Part shown: one piece after another, positions 5,319-49,173 of the stretch
How the letters are laid out: the number at the start of each line of letters is the position of its first letter
Numbering within the stretch: position 1 is the stretch's first letter
NCBI RefSeq assembly: GCF_036345255.1
Contig: NZ_CP107783.1
Coordinates: 7,428,501 to 7,492,500 of the forward strand
DNA: 64,000 bases
From: Streptomyces sp. NBC_00569
GTDB taxonomy: Bacteria; Actinomycetota; Actinomycetes; Streptomycetales; Streptomycetaceae
Reading direction: 5' to 3'
Notes under the pieces: model-generated
Told to the model about the DNA's origin: nothing
Database searches by the model: none
Seen by the model: the letters and a program-made list of their open reading frames with translations, nothing else
Made by a program: the position numbers and the translations under genes

Positions 5319-5324
5319 TAGACT
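5319..5324 (+). promoter_or_regulatory. Minus-10 element of a leaderless leader-peptide transcript
   Basis: TAGACT fits TANNNT and ends six bases before an ATG at 5331, placing the likely transcription start on the A of that ATG. No good -35 (TTGACA-like) is present 17-18 bp upstream. GGAAA at 5295-5299 and GTT at 5317-5319, 17 bp apart, loosely resemble a SigR-type ECF promoter. Confidence 0.5.
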
Positions 5325-5330
5325 TGGCCC

Positions 5331-5354
5331 ATGGCCATTCTCCGCATGCACTAG
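5331..5354 (+). CDS. Candidate leader peptide (MAILRMH) before ABC-F gene
   Basis: An ATG followed by six sense codons and TAG encodes MAILRMH. It begins at the predicted transcription start, so it would be translated as a leaderless mRNA. The stop is followed at once by GACGGC (5354-5359), which can pair with GCCGTC (5383-5388), and then by the AGGAG ribosome binding site of the ABC-F gene (5402-5406). Leader peptides with a downstream hairpin control several antibiotic-resistance ABC-F genes by ribosome-mediated attenuation. Whether this one does so is inference. Confidence 0.45.
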   Translation: MAILRMH

Positions 5355-5413
5355 ACGGCTCATCGCCCTCAGTAGCCCTTCCGCCGTCCATATCCCTGCT
5401 CAGGAGTCTGTCC

Positions 5414-7012
5414 GTGATCACCGCTTCCGGCATCGAGCTGCGCGCCGGCGCCCGCATCCTCATCGAGAACGCCACCTTCCGTATCGCCAAGGGCGACCGC
5501 ATCGGCCTGGTCGGACGCAACGGCGCGGGCAAGACGACGCTCACCAAGTGCCTCGCCGGTGAGGGCACCCCGGCCGGAGGTCAGATCGCCCGCTCCGGAG
5601 AGGTCGGCTACCTGCCGCAGGACCCCCGCACCGGCGACCTCGACGTCCTGGCCCGCGACCGCATCCTGTCCGCGCGCGGCCTCGACACCCTGATCCAGAA
5701 GATGCGTGACAACGAGCAGCGCATCGCCAACGGCACGGGCGCCACGCGCGCGAAGGCGCTCAAGCAGTACGAGCGCCAGGAGACGGAGTTCCTCACCAAG
5801 GGCGGATACGCCGCCGAGGCCGAGGCCGCCACCATCGCCGCCGCGCTCAACCTGCCCGACCGCGTGCTCGGCCAGCCCCTGCACACGCTCTCCGGCGGAC
5901 AGCGCCGCCGTATCGAGCTGGCCCGCATCCTCTTCTCCGACGCGGACACCCTGCTCCTCGACGAGCCCACGAACCACCTCGACGCCGACTCCATCGTCTG
6001 GCTGCGCGACTACCTGAAGTCGTACCGCGGTGGCTTCATCGTGATCTCCCACGACGTCGACCTCGTCGAGACGGTCGTCAACAAGGTGTTCTACCTGGAC
6101 GCGAACCGCTCCCAGATCGACGTCTACAACATGGGCTGGAAGCTCTACCAGCAGCAGCGCGAGGCCGACGAGAAGCGCCGCAAGCGCGAGCGCCAGAACG
6201 CCGAGAAGAAGGCCGCGGCCCTCAACTCCCAGGCCGACAAGATGCGCGCCAAGGCGACCAAGACCGTCGCCGCGCAGAACATGGCCAAGCGCGCCGACCG
6301 GCTGCTCGCCGGGCTCGACGCGGTCCGCGTCTCCGACAAGGTCGCCAAGCTGCGCTTCCCCGAGCCCTCCCCGTGCGGCAAGACGCCGCTGATGGCCGAG
6401 GGCCTGTCGAAGTCGTACGGCTCCCTGGAGATCTTCACCGACGTCGACCTGGCCATCGACAAGGGCTCGCGCGTCGTCATCCTCGGCCTCAACGGCGCGG
6501 GCAAGACCACCCTGCTCAAGCTGCTCGGCGGGGCCGAGAAGCCGGACACCGGCGAGATCATCGAGGGCCACGGCCTCAAGCTCGGCTACTACGCGCAGGA
6601 GCACGAGACCCTCGACCCGGAGCGCACGGTCCTGGAGAACATGCGCTCCGCCGCCCCCGACCTGGACCTGGTCGAGGTGCGCAAGACGCTCGGTTCGTTC
6701 CTGTTCTCCGGGGACGACGTCGACAAGCCGGCCGGTGTCCTGTCCGGCGGTGAGAAGACCCGCCTCGCGCTCGCCACGCTCGTCGTGTCGTCCGCGAACG
6801 TCCTGCTCCTCGACGAGCCCACGAACAACCTCGACCCGGCCAGCCGCGAGGAGATCCTCGGCGCGCTGCGCACCTACAAGGGCGCCGTCGTCCTCGTCAC
6901 CCACGACGAGGGCGCCGTGGACGCGCTCCAGCCGGAGCGGATCATCCTGCTGCCCGACGGCGTCGAGGACCTCTGGGGCCAGGACTACGCGGATCTGGTC
7001 AGCCTCGCCTGA
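5414..7012 (+). CDS. ABC-F family ribosome-associated ATPase
   Basis: The 532-residue soluble protein has two ABC domains and no membrane segments. The first has Walker A GRNGAGKTTL (~35), signature LSGGQ and Walker B LLLDEPTNHLD. The second has GLNGAGKTTL (~360), LSGGE and LLLDEPTNNLD. Between them lies a highly charged Lys/Arg/Glu helical linker (~240-300), the element that reaches into the ribosome in ABC-F proteins. These act on stalled or antibiotic-bound ribosomes. The sequence looks like a housekeeping member rather than a cluster-borne resistance factor. GTG start with AGGAG seven bases upstream; the longer reading frame from 5324 is rejected because of this site. Confidence 0.92.
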   Translation: MITASGIELRAGARILIENATFRIAKGDRIGLVGRNGAGKTTLTKCLAGEGTPAGGQIARSGEVGYLPQDPRTGDLDVLARDRILSARGLDTLIQKMRDNEQRIANGTGATRAKALKQYERQETEFLTKGGYAAEAEAATIAAALNLPDRVLGQPLHTLSGGQRRRIELARILFSDADTLLLDEPTNHLDADSIVWLRDYLKSYRGGFIVISHDVDLVETVVNKVFYLDANRSQIDVYNMGWKLYQQQREADEKRRKRERQNAEKKAAALNSQADKMRAKATKTVAAQNMAKRADRLLAGLDAVRVSDKVAKLRFPEPSPCGKTPLMAEGLSKSYGSLEIFTDVDLAIDKGSRVVILGLNGAGKTTLLKLLGGAEKPDTGEIIEGHGLKLGYYAQEHETLDPERTVLENMRSAAPDLDLVEVRKTLGSFLFSGDDVDKPAGVLSGGEKTRLALATLVVSSANVLLLDEPTNNLDPASREEILGALRTYKGAVVLVTHDEGAVDALQPERIILLPDGVEDLWGQDYADLVSLA

Positions 7013-7405
7013 CCCTCCGGCGCCCGCGTCCGGGCCCGCACGATCACGGTCGGCCGTCAGCGCGGCTTGATCGAAAGGCTGATCCACTCGGTATGGATCA
7101 TTCGGCCGATCCGTGATCCATCATCTGAGTGAGATCTCCTCGTACCGCGGTGTGTCCTACACGGATTTCGTCGCCGCACCGGCGCCGGGGCCCTTGTGTT
7201 GACGGACAACGCGCTGACCTGGCCCTTCGCGGACAACGCCGTTTCCGGCCTCGTCGAGGTGTGCCCGGAACCCTCCGTTCCGCTCGTGTCGACCGCTTCC
7301 CGACCGCACAAGCTCGTCGTACGGACCTTGCCGAATGGGTGGCCAGGAAGCCCGGGAGGGGTGATCATGAGAAGTCCAGAGCGCACTTCCCATGAGGAGG
7401 CACGG
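7013..7405. other. 393-bp intergenic region upstream of gbn
   Basis: No convincing gene lies here. The first part holds a dense GATC array (7042-7136). A direct repeat CGGACAACGC occurs at 7203-7212 and 7230-7239. A further GATC is at 7363-7366 and the gbn ribosome binding site GAGGAGG at 7394-7400. The reading frame of gbn stays open back to 7196, but no start there has a ribosome binding site. Confidence 0.7.
7042..7136. promoter_or_regulatory. Cluster of seven GATC sites, candidate Gbn autoregulatory region
   Basis: GATC begins at 7042, 7069, 7081, 7096, 7108, 7115 and 7133. At this base composition GATC is expected about once per 400 bp, so seven in 95 bp is far above chance. The downstream gene encodes a homologue of Gbn (SCO1839), described as a GATC-binding nucleoid protein. 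Autoregulation or nucleation of binding is inferred. Confidence 0.6.
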
Positions 7406-7630
7406 GTGGCCGAGACTCTGAAGAAGGGCAGCCGGGTAACCGGCGCCGCGCGCGACAAGCTCGCGGCAGACCTGAAGAAGAAGTACGACTCCGGTGCGAG
7501 CATCCGAGCGCTGGCCGAAGAAACCGGCCGCTCGTATGGGTTCGTGCACCGGATGCTCAGTGAGTCGGGAGTCACGCTGCGAGGTCGCGGCGGGGCTACA
7601 CGCGGCAAGAAGGCGACCGCGGCCGGCTGA
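7406..7630 (+). CDS. gbn: GATC-binding nucleoid-associated protein Gbn-like
   Basis: The 74-residue basic protein starts at a GTG with GAGGAGG five bases upstream. It has a helix-turn-helix (LAADLKKKYDSGASIRALAE, then TGRSYGFVHRML) and a basic, Gly-rich tail ending RGKKATAAG. This matches the S. coelicolor SCO1839 protein, reported as Gbn, a small abundant protein that binds GATC, shapes the chromosome and influences antibiotic production and development. It is monocistronic here, with the enoyl-CoA hydratase 129 bp downstream. The GATC array upstream supports binding to its own control region. Identity rests on recognition of the sequence, not on a search. Confidence 0.88.
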   Translation: MAETLKKGSRVTGAARDKLAADLKKKYDSGASIRALAEETGRSYGFVHRMLSESGVTLRGRGGATRGKKATAAG

Positions 7631-7759: not shown

Positions 7760-8572
7760 ATGGCTTCGCCCGACAGCGGATCCGGCTCGCTCGCGCCGGT
7801 ACTCGACAAGGACGGGGTCCGCCTCACCGTCGACGGCTCCATCGCCACGGTGACGCTGACCAACCCGGACAAGCGCAACGCCCAAAGTCCTGCTCTGTGG
7901 CGGGCGTTGGCCGACGCCGGGAAGTCCCTGCCGGGCAGCGTGCGCGTCGTCGTACTGCGCGCGGAGGGACTCTCGTTCTCCGCGGGCCTCGACCGTCAGG
8001 CGTTCACGCCCGAGGGTTTCGACGGCGAGCCGTCCTTCATCGACCTGGCGCGCGGCTCCGACGACGTGCTCGACGACACCATCGCCGAGTACCAGGAGGC
8101 GTTCACCTGGTGGCGGCGCAGCGACATCATCACCGTCGCCGCGGTGCAGGGACACGCGATCGGCGCGGGCTTCCAGCTCGCCCTCGCCTGCGATCTGCGG
8201 ATCGCCGCCGAGGACGTGCAGTTCTCCATGCGCGAGACCAGCCTCGGTCTGGTGCCCGACCTCACCGGCACGCATCCGCTCGTCTCCCTCGTGGGATACG
8301 CGCGCGCCCTGGAGATCTGCGTCACCGGCCGCTACGTCCACGCCGACGAGGCCGGCCGCATCGGCCTGGCCAACCTCGTGGTGCCCGCCGACCAGCTCGA
8401 CGCCGCCGCGCGTGACCTCGCCGGAGCGCTCATCGCCGCGCCCCGCGACGCCGTCATCGAGACCAAGGCCCTGCTCCAGGGCGTCTCCGGACGCTCGTAC
8501 GAGGAGCAGCGCACCGCCGAGCGCGCCGCTCAGGGACGCCGGCTCCGGGACCTGGCGGGCCTCGGCGACTGA
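7760..8572 (+). CDS. Enoyl-CoA hydratase/isomerase family protein
   Basis: The 270-residue protein is a crotonase-superfamily member. GAGFQLALACDLRIAAEDVQF (shortened to the core) around residue 135-155 is the oxyanion-hole signature, and the CoA-binding LRAEGLSFSAGLD segment lies near 75. The usual catalytic Glu context (GLVPDLTGTHPL) is altered, carrying Asp in place of the common glycine-rich GAGGT stretch, so it may be an isomerase or another crotonase activity instead of a true hydratase. ATG start with GGAGG upstream. It stands alone between gbn and the Asp23 cluster. Confidence 0.85.
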   Translation: MASPDSGSGSLAPVLDKDGVRLTVDGSIATVTLTNPDKRNAQSPALWRALADAGKSLPGSVRVVVLRAEGLSFSAGLDRQAFTPEGFDGEPSFIDLARGSDDVLDDTIAEYQEAFTWWRRSDIITVAAVQGHAIGAGFQLALACDLRIAAEDVQFSMRETSLGLVPDLTGTHPLVSLVGYARALEICVTGRYVHADEAGRIGLANLVVPADQLDAAARDLAGALIAAPRDAVIETKALLQGVSGRSYEEQRTAERAAQGRRLRDLAGLGD

Positions 8573-47136: not shown

Positions 47137-49173
47137 TCAGCCGCGCGGGCCCCTCCGGGGTGGCTGCGGCCCCTCCTCGTCCGGCGCCGACGGTGACCGT
47201 GACGGCGGGCGCGGCAGTGGCGGTGGGGGAGGAGGCGGTGGCGGCACGGGCCATCCCTTGCCGGACCCGGACCCGGAACCCGACCCGGGCCGCCCTCGCG
47301 GACGCGGCGGCACCGGTGGCCTGACCGGCCCCACCATCGTCGGCGCCCCGTACAGATCGTCCGGCAGATCATCCTGCCGATTGCCCGACCGATCGCTCGG
47401 CCTGTTCTCCGACCGATCCTGCGGCCGATCGCTCGGCCTGTTCTCCGACTGATCTTGCGGCCGATCGTTCGGCCTGTTCTCCGACTGATCTTGCGGCCGA
47501 TCGCTCGGCCTGTTCTCCGACCGATCCTGCGGCCGATCGCTCGACCTGTTCCCCGACCGATCGCTCGTCCGATCGCCCGCCCGTTCGTCGGCCAGTTCGC
47601 CCGGCGGCTTCAGATACGGGTTCGTCGCGTCCGGCGACGCCCGGTACGGCGTGCTCGGCCGATACGGCCCCGCCTCCTGGGACGGGACGAGCCCGACGGG
47701 CCGGACCACACCGTCCCCCCGTTCGCGCGGTTCGCCCCGTGCCCACCGCTCCTCCGGTTCCACTCCGCCCCCGCTCAGCGCAGCTGGCGCCGCCCGCCGG
47801 CCCGCCGCCCCCGCCCCGTGAGCCAGCAGCGCTCCCACCGCTCCCGCCCCCGCTCCCCAGGCGGCCCCGAGCAGCAGCGCCATGCCGAGATGTCCGTGCA
47901 GCTCGATGCCGGCCCCGAACGCGTCGAAGCCGAGTACGGACAGCGAGGCGTCCGCCGACACGTCCGTCAGCCGCACGAGCAGCGGGAGGCCGAGCGCCAT
48001 GACGACCCCGAGCCGCAGCGCGCACCTCCCGGCGAAGCCGGCGGCGCCCATCGGCCGCGACCCGGGCCCGCCGGTCACCGCAGGTGTCCGCACGGCGGTC
48101 AGTACGCCCGCGAGCACCGTCATCAGAAGGGTCGCGAAGGCCAACAGCCATATTCTGTCGTCCAGTTCGGCGAGACGGCCCAGCGTCACCGGCTCGTTCG
48201 TGTGCATCCGCAGCAACTCGTCGACCGGGTGGGGAAGGGTCTGCGCGAGAGTGCCCGTCGCCTTGCCGTCCCACGGGACGAAGAGGCCGAGGGGGATGCC
48301 GAGCCACACCCCGTTGGGTGCCCCGAGCAGCGCGGCGCCCGCGATCCGCCGCGGATGGTCGTCGCCGATCATCGCGTACGCCGCTGCCGCGAGCCCCGCG
48401 GCAACCGCTACCGACAACACCGTGACCAGTGACGAAGCGGCGGGACGGACCACCCGGTGCAGCGCGTCGAGGGCGCGCGGGAGCGGCGTCCTGCGCGAGG
48501 CGAGCAGTGCGATCAGCAGGACGCCGATCACCCACGCGGCGCCGCCCAGCAGAGAGGATCCGGTCTCGACGGTGAACCCGACGGTCGCCTTCGCGTCCGC
48601 GAGGCGGCCGATGTGGTCCGGCAGGAGTCCTCCGAGGTCGAGGCCGCCCGGCAGCTTGTCCTTGATGCCGCCCGGCAGATCCCCGTCCGGTATCCGGTCG
48701 AGCCCGAGCTTCCCGCCGTCAATCGTGATGAGGTCGTGACCCGCCCGGGCAAGCCCTGCGAGCATCGCCAGAAACAGTGTGACCACGCTCCCCGCGCGTG
48801 CCGCGAGTTCGGCCGGCGTGACCTCAACTCCCGCCCCACGTAGGGAACGCAGGAAGAACCAGCTGAGCAGCAGAGCGCCCGTGAGGCCCACGCCGAGCGG
48901 CGCGATATCGATGGCCGTGTGGGCCTGCGCGCCGTCCAGTCCGAAGGCTGAGACGTCTCCCGACGGCGTGACTTTCCCACCCACCCCAAGGGCCACCACC
49001 GCGGCCGTCATCGGGCCGAGCGAACCCGCGGAATCCGCTCCGAGCAGATGAAGGCCGGCCGCGGCGACCGTCGCCATCCCGATGAACGCCCAGCTCACGG
49101 AGGCGACCGCGCAGAGCAATACGTCGCTCCAGCGCACGCCCTCGCGCCCGCTCCCCCGGACAACGGTCTCCAT
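47137..49173 (-). CDS. Streptophobe family membrane protein
   Basis: The 678-residue protein has ~9-11 transmembrane helices, including a short LLSWFFLRSLRGAGVEVTPAE loop region, and matches the actinomycete-specific streptophobe group of very hydrophobic proteins. A Gly/Asp-rich loop (IPDGDLPGGIKDKLPGG) faces outside. From ~555 a hydrophilic tail carries four 12-residue repeats of RPQDxSENRPSD, then a Pro/Gly-rich end with PPPPPPPPPLP. ATG at 49173. It is divergent from the FHA-ABC gene across ~200 bp. The function is unknown. Confidence 0.78.
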   Translation of the reverse strand: METVVRGSGREGVRWSDVLLCAVASVSWAFIGMATVAAAGLHLLGADSAGSLGPMTAAVVALGVGGKVTPSGDVSAFGLDGAQAHTAIDIAPLGVGLTGALLLSWFFLRSLRGAGVEVTPAELAARAGSVVTLFLAMLAGLARAGHDLITIDGGKLGLDRIPDGDLPGGIKDKLPGGLDLGGLLPDHIGRLADAKATVGFTVETGSSLLGGAAWVIGVLLIALLASRRTPLPRALDALHRVVRPAASSLVTVLSVAVAAGLAAAAYAMIGDDHPRRIAGAALLGAPNGVWLGIPLGLFVPWDGKATGTLAQTLPHPVDELLRMHTNEPVTLGRLAELDDRIWLLAFATLLMTVLAGVLTAVRTPAVTGGPGSRPMGAAGFAGRCALRLGVVMALGLPLLVRLTDVSADASLSVLGFDAFGAGIELHGHLGMALLLGAAWGAGAGAVGALLAHGAGAAGRRAAPAALSGGGVEPEERWARGEPRERGDGVVRPVGLVPSQEAGPYRPSTPYRASPDATNPYLKPPGELADERAGDRTSDRSGNRSSDRPQDRSENRPSDRPQDQSENRPNDRPQDQSENRPSDRPQDRSENRPSDRSGNRQDDLPDDLYGAPTMVGPVRPPVPPRPRGRPGSGSGSGSGKGWPVPPPPPPPPPLPRPPSRSPSAPDEEGPQPPRRGPRG
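47391..47534 (-). repeat. Four 36-bp coding repeats rich in GATC
   Basis: Four near-identical 36-bp units (starting 47391, 47427, 47463, 47499) encode RPQD(R/Q)SENRP(S/N)D in the tail of the streptophobe protein; a degenerate fifth follows. Each unit contains two GATC sites. It is a coding minisatellite, not a CRISPR, since units abut without spacers. Confidence 0.85.

Follow-up and report, generated by a model that had tools for sequence, protein, structure and literature searches.

Comparative evidence that the predicted –10 box of gbn may also be a binding site for Gbn

Why is the gene for a GATC-binding nucleoid protein preceded by a dense array of GATC sites? We addressed this question at the gbn locus of Streptomyces sp. 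NBC_00569, within a stretch of 64,000 nucleotides (the window). A first-pass annotation had named the gene downstream of the array as a gbn (SCO1839) homologue, and this identification holds: the 74-aa product is 95–100% identical over 70–74 residues to the proteins of 80 named loci (the best 80 of 434 confirmed, nearly all of them Streptomyces), and HTH_58 is its sole Pfam match above cut-off. It has the form of the Gbn/SCO1839 family, i.e., a small actinobacterial protein of about 73 aa with a single HTH. The source genome holds one gbn match, and a homologue is present in 135 of 196 class-level genomes. Comparison by sequence of Gbn with solved structures gave no match; the protein (7406–7630) also has a weak match, below cut-off, to the model of Cbp1, which binds CRISPR DNA repeats (E 1.5e-8). 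The features of the locus are collected in Table 1.

Table 1. Features of the gbn locus, in window coordinates.
Feature	Position	Strand	Basis
ABC-F ATPase gene, upstream neighbour	5324..7012	+	ORF list; above-cut-off matches to Pfam ABC_tran and to NCBIfam ribosomal-protection-like ABC-F; start 5324 is mechanical and the true start may be later
Seven-site GATC array	7042..7136	.	GATC starts 7042, 7069, 7081, 7096, 7108, 7115, 7133
Conserved distal block TGGATCATTCGGCC...GTGATCC..CATCTGNGTGAG...	7094..7146	+	Many near-invariant columns; GATCATTCGGC in 93/99 loci
Conserved TGACCTGG box	7215..7222	+	148 bp before the –10 in 57/63 occurrences
AtrA-like inverted repeat GGAAC-N5-GTTCC	7267..7281	.	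Resembles the AtrA element GGAACCACCGGTTCC of PMC4457907
Predicted –35 box TGGCCA (TRGCSA family)	7340..7345	+	TGGCCA-N17-GATCAT in 99/99 loci
Predicted –10 box GATCAT, also a full Gbn motif (putative operator)	7363..7368	+	Comparative sequence evidence
Ribosome-binding site GAGGAGG	7394..7400	+	Sequence; conserved
gbn homologue, 74 aa, GTG start	7406..7630	+	Pfam PF19575 HTH_58, E 2.3e-33
Enoyl-CoA hydratase family gene, downstream neighbour	7760..8572	+	ORF list and domain match

The closest known system is Gbn of S. coelicolor, the same gene with a multi-GATC upstream region, to which binding has been demonstrated by ChIP-seq and EMSA (Du et al. 2022, PMC9239103). The protein binds GATC(A/T)T, and its ChIP summit at gbn lies at –326/–324, where enrichment was 67.75- and 58.18-fold, more than for any other entry in Table 1 of that paper; –326 corresponds to position 7080 of the window, inside the array, if the spacing is the same. 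The array and the binding of Gbn to it are thus already known in S. coelicolor, and the array as such is not new. What is new here is comparative evidence on the gbn upstream region. Deletion of gbn accelerates development by 2–5 h, and sporulation comes about 17 h late when gbn is expressed constitutively; gbn is reported to rise late in growth, and an AtrA site was predicted in its promoter (PMC9239103). The published mutant removes +1 to +207 and Table 1 of the paper gives no gbn expression change; this mutant cannot show autorepression, because the gene itself has been removed. The main text of PMC9239103 contains no wording on autoregulation, feedback, self-regulation or cooperativity. 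In the parts of that paper covered here we found no treatment of a –10 overlap at –43, of site conservation or of distance phasing, and nothing on how Gbn dose is set; nor did the covered parts of the open-licence Streptomyces literature naming Gbn mention its autoregulation.

All seven GATC starts between 7042 and 7133 are present as annotated, and seven sites in 95 bp is far above chance. The assumed background of one GATC per 400 bp was too low, given that the window has 403 in 64 kb, or about one per 159 bp. The maximum per 95 bp was five in 300 dinucleotide shuffles of the whole window and six, once, in 5000 shuffles of the intergenic region 7013–7405, so that seven was reached in 0/300 and 0/5000 cases, respectively. 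In a natural background of 781 kb, comprising 80 related loci and the window minus the 600 bp upstream of gbn, a six-GATC cluster starts at 4 of 3567 GATC sites and a seven-GATC cluster at none; three of the four belong to a tandem repeat within the window. A control using the reversed pattern was uninformative, because CTAG is rare. GATC arrays are not unique to gbn in the source genome: among the matches listed, an 11-bp repeat at G000:C1:729334-729403 carries seven GATC in 70 bp and is denser than the gbn array, and a 36-bp tandem repeat at 47389–47576 of the window (5.2 copies, 5–6 GATC per 95 bp) forms a second GATC-dense patch there. Of the seven array sites just one, 7096 (GATCAT), matches the published motif GATCWT in full when both strands are considered.

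We compared the upstream region across 99 Streptomyces-type loci (80 named, 18 unnamed and the window; some species are possibly represented twice, and four named ones are not labelled Streptomyces). GATC is above background in these loci, with a mean of 4.93 sites against 0.86 expected in the 190 bp from –420 to –230, and the array thus withstands this check. At least four sites per 95 bp occur in 64 loci, at least five in 45 and seven in four; the window array is the dense end of a real trait. In an alignment of 81 loci, three array sites are kept at the aligned position in most (7081 in 65, 7096 in 79 and 7115 in 77). The other four vary, being kept in 45 loci or fewer (7042 in 2, 7069 in 19, 7108 in 14 and 7133 in 45). 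The conserved distal block contains sites 7096, 7108, 7115 and 7133, with 7081 just before it, and it also has near-invariant bases outside GATC. No –35 at a matching distance was seen by eye inside the block, and a second promoter there was rejected. As a regulon motif GGATCATTCGGC was also discarded, having two copies in the source genome, one of them at gbn; CTGNGTGAGATC has eight copies in that genome.

The most conserved GATC site was absent from the list of the first-pass annotation. This is the GATCAT at 7363, which is separate from the array, is kept in 81/81 aligned loci and lies exactly 17 bp after TGGCCA in all 99. A sigma-70-type promoter asks for a 17-bp spacer and for A at position 2 and T at position 6 of the –10 hexamer. 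The 17-bp spacer with a NANNNT hexamer, a match in sequence form, is found in 99/99 Streptomyces-type loci and in 33 of 56 genera of other families. The upstream element is TRGCSA, a poor match to TTGACA, and a plain sigma-70 consensus scan found no promoter. From this arrangement we infer the gbn promoter, and with it the transcription start. The GATCWT motif overlaps the predicted –10, as an operator over a core promoter would. An alternative assignment, with TRGC as the –10 and GATCAT downstream of the start, was rejected: it gives no reason for the exact 23-bp offset and misfits the register switch described below. The strict form TRGCSA-N17-GATCATG occurs once in the source genome. Among 24 further genomes of the family that lacked a distal match, 23 were readable: all 23 have GATCAT upstream of gbn, 22 have the –35 pattern and one has TGGTCA, and at least four array sites are present in one. 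The comparative result moves the centre of interest from the array to a promoter box about 230 bp downstream. Against this promoter site, the published EMSA fragment (–561 to –239) excludes –43, and the ChIP summit falls on the array and away from –43. In its favour, enhanced constitutive expression was obtained with an ermE promoter in place of –157 to +4 (PMC9239103), a stretch that contains the predicted gbn promoter. Weak gbn-like second copies (L241, L242) carry a ATGATCAT-type palindrome about 40 bp upstream and no –35 signature; the promoter signature was found in none of six weak second copies examined.

To follow the predicted promoter beyond Streptomyces we used 105 loci, from 116 matched genomes outside the genus, covering 56 of 58 genera and 28 families and counting one locus per genus. 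Within 150 bp upstream of gbn there are 59 forward GATCWT sites in 39/56 genera (shuffle mean 4.8, maximum 10 in 200), and 20 reverse sites in 19 loci (shuffle mean 4.7, maximum 11). This enrichment in front of homologues is indirect support for GATC(A/T)T binding by the homologue in the window. Further upstream, at –450 to –150, there are 7 forward GATCWT sites, against 2.4 by shuffles (maximum 8) and 9.3 expected from the rest of the loci, and 99 GATC, where the rest of the loci would predict 112.9 and shuffles 55.5. GATCWT near the promoter thus stays in excess in other families despite the lack of a distal GATC excess over the rest of the loci, and in our reading the distal block is an addition in Streptomyces and related genera. 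In family f15 (L106-L108, L112-L115, L123) we observed a separate GATC series at about –134, –115, –93, –67 and –49, which by eye lies partly inside the end of the ABC-F gene.

The spacing found in Streptomyces recurs in these families. TRGC stands exactly 23 bp before a forward GATCWT in 23 genera (11 families), whereas the other 53 offsets average about 0.6, and it stands there at 0/196 GATCWT sites elsewhere in the loci and at 0/20 reverse-sense sites read in their own sense. TRGCS followed by NANNNT at +23 occurs in 30/56 genera, against 0–6 at other distances from 15 to 31, and GATC overlaps the hexamer in 29 of these 30. With the –35 relaxed to T(A/G/T)G, 17 bp before a –10-like hexamer overlapping GATCWT, the arrangement is present in 33/56 genera and 17/28 families. 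Two registers occur, in different families: 25 of the 33 genera have GATCAT (forward) and eight have NAWGATC (reverse), the latter with both W variants of the motif, GAAGATC (f16) and CATGATC (f20, f26, f32). The two registers are two ways of fitting GATCWT into NANNNT. Because of the 17-bp spacer, the NANNNT fit and the two registers, we take this as evidence that the predicted –10 box is maintained as a Gbn site by selection. Since loci from the same clade are not independent and genera of one family are related, these genus counts, like the phasing statistic given below, are optimistic, and the independent unit is nearer to the family. The exact signature is absent in 23/56 genera, including all representatives of f4 (2), f13 (2) and f14 (5); the spacer is 18 bp in two of the 23 (f15) and 16 bp in one (f7). 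A GATC excess is absent in f4 (0.7-fold) and f24 (0.6-fold).

We further analyzed the position of the distal block relative to the predicted –10. In 93 loci (six of the 99, without the exact distal core, were dropped), the distance from the core GATC at 7096 to the –10 takes the values 233, 243, 264–268, 276–277 and 287–291. A search of 394 genomes of the family over the range 226–256 found five genomes, at 243, 243, 244, 255 and 256, filling the missing step; over the range 269–299 it found 90 genomes, 89 of them at 275–279 or 287–293 and one at 269, in 7 of the 17 genera of the family. The remainder of the covered range of 226–299 was searched in 121 genomes, with none in the gap 257–263 and 19 at 264–268. 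The six distance clusters, at 233, 243.2, 255.5, 266.7, 277.7 and 289.4, are separated by a step of about 11.35 bp, with R 0.98 at this value against 0.65 at 10.5 bp. Randomly placed centres were this regular in 12/20000 trials, or in 1/5000 with a minimum spacing; these figures include at least three genomes twice and treat related clades as if they were independent. Between the block and the –10, GGAA-N7-TTCC is present in 85/99 loci (the longer GGAAC-N5-GTTCC in only 4/99) and lies 96 bp before the –10 in 81/82 occurrences. Since this distance is constant in nearly all occurrences and the 148 bp of TGACCTGG in most, the length of the region varies mainly between the distal block and TGACCTGG; two loci have also lost 22 bp downstream of TGACCTGG. 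The steps of about 11.3 bp suggest helical phasing of the distal block against the –10.

These distances bear on whether the distal array could be a sink for Gbn, or a chromosome-organising patch, with no effect on gbn. The array has the highest fold enrichment in the published table, its density differs between species, and promoter-bound genes seldom respond to loss of gbn (of genes with strongly bound promoters, 9.5% change significantly in the mutant, against 6.9% overall; PMC9239103). A sink, however, would not be expected to hold a position-conserved block of about 50 bp, nor to keep a quantised distance to the promoter, and we consider it the less likely account of the array, with perhaps a minor chance of being right. 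A somewhat smaller chance attaches to the proposal that TRGCS-N18-GATCATGG serves a different regulator or a specialised sigma factor and resembles the Gbn motif only by coincidence or secondarily. Its –35 part departs from the housekeeping consensus and yet is conserved. This looser form occurs in 114/196 genomes, 0–6 times in each and, among the matches listed, mostly away from gbn (by eye, about 14 of the listed places are at gbn), so that our argument depends on where the word stands at gbn and how it is spaced, and not on the word as such. Against the proposal, some families have GATCAT and others NAWGATC, with the –35 distance and the NANNNT frame unchanged, and both W variants of the published motif appear in the reverse register. 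Such a switch is unexpected for a bipartite site of one protein and is expected for a –10 that must also be GATCWT; we therefore regard another regulator or sigma factor as unlikely.

The first-pass annotation had proposed from the spacings that the array serves cooperative loading or as a nucleation site, an account under which Gbn would nucleate or spread along the DNA. Several Gbn molecules do bind multi-site fragments (PMC9239103), which would suit this proposal. The common spacings in the 99 loci (19, 15, 12, 18 and 7) are irregular, however, and not helically phased, so that we rejected regular spacing or phasing inside the array, and the extra sites are not conserved. Moreover, Gbn causes minimal DNA deformation, with steric hindrance suggested between close sites, and the tethered-particle test on the gbn promoter registered a change of only around 4 nm (PMC9239103). 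Nucleation thus seems quite improbable, and this part of the annotation was not supported. Finally, GATCATG as an alternative start codon, or as part of an RNA leader and not a DNA site, is barely credible and was rejected in both forms: the ATG is in frame with gbn in the window and its flanks are conserved in Streptomyces, but the frame is not kept across families (it is lost in several other loci, e.g., L112, L125, L126 and L168), some genera carry GATCATT or GATCATC, and the window leader folds no better than shuffles (z 1.12 and 0.78) with no match in Rfam.

The reading that we favour, and judge probable on the comparative evidence, is that the –10 box of gbn is a Gbn site through which Gbn would repress its own gene by promoter occlusion, with the distal block tuning repression. 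Autoregulation, which the first-pass annotation had suggested from the array, is in this respect supported by comparative genomics, mainly via the promoter site at 7363 and not via the seven sites. When Gbn is scarce, polymerase would use TGGCCA-N17-GATCAT. Since the predicted –10 fits both the sigma hexamer NANNNT and the complete Gbn motif GATCWT, Gbn bound there would keep RNA polymerase out, and rising Gbn would occupy GATCAT and so limit expression of its gene. The distal block of Streptomyces and several related genera has its GATC sites about 230–290 bp upstream of the –10, where they would keep to one helical face relative to the promoter, and in Streptomyces it is often expanded to a dense array; it probably increases the concentration of Gbn nearby and makes the repression stronger or adjusts it, possibly through a loop. 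Occupancy of 7363 in vivo, the repression and the loop are what we infer from this arrangement. An AtrA-like activator site lies between, from which AtrA may activate, and the late-growth rise of gbn would need activation or a change in free Gbn.

Autorepression via an operator overlapping the promoter –10 is a general mechanism of repressors. The likeness lies in a binding site placed to block polymerase; at gbn, in contrast, the predicted –10 hexamer would itself be the word that a nucleoid-associated protein recognises, set in one of two registers depending on the family. The distance steps resemble those of lac-type repression loops, in which distances are likewise favoured in steps of about one helical turn, a turn being given as 11 bp for bacterial DNA loops in vivo (PMC8501960); at gbn the likeness is one of sequence spacing. 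As to the bridging of two sites by Gbn that a loop would require, the tethered-particle data gave a very small change (PMC9239103). AtrA-activated promoters (PMC4457907) share with the gbn upstream region the inverted repeat GGAAC-N5-GTTCC, and the AtrA site at gbn is a prediction.

Taken as a whole, these observations raise a broader and more tentative possibility, which falls somewhat short of an even chance: that a Gbn word lies inside its own gene's –10 across 18 actinobacterial families (17 and that of Streptomyces) in two registers, and that in Streptomyces and relatives a phased array loops to this –10, forming a switch that sets Gbn dose and sporulation timing. Gbn dose affects the timing of sporulation in S. 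coelicolor, and a conserved promoter with a Gbn site as its –10 would be a direct and testable answer to how that dose is set. It would also be a clear example of a single DNA word shared by sigma factor and repressor, which may be traced across a whole bacterial class.
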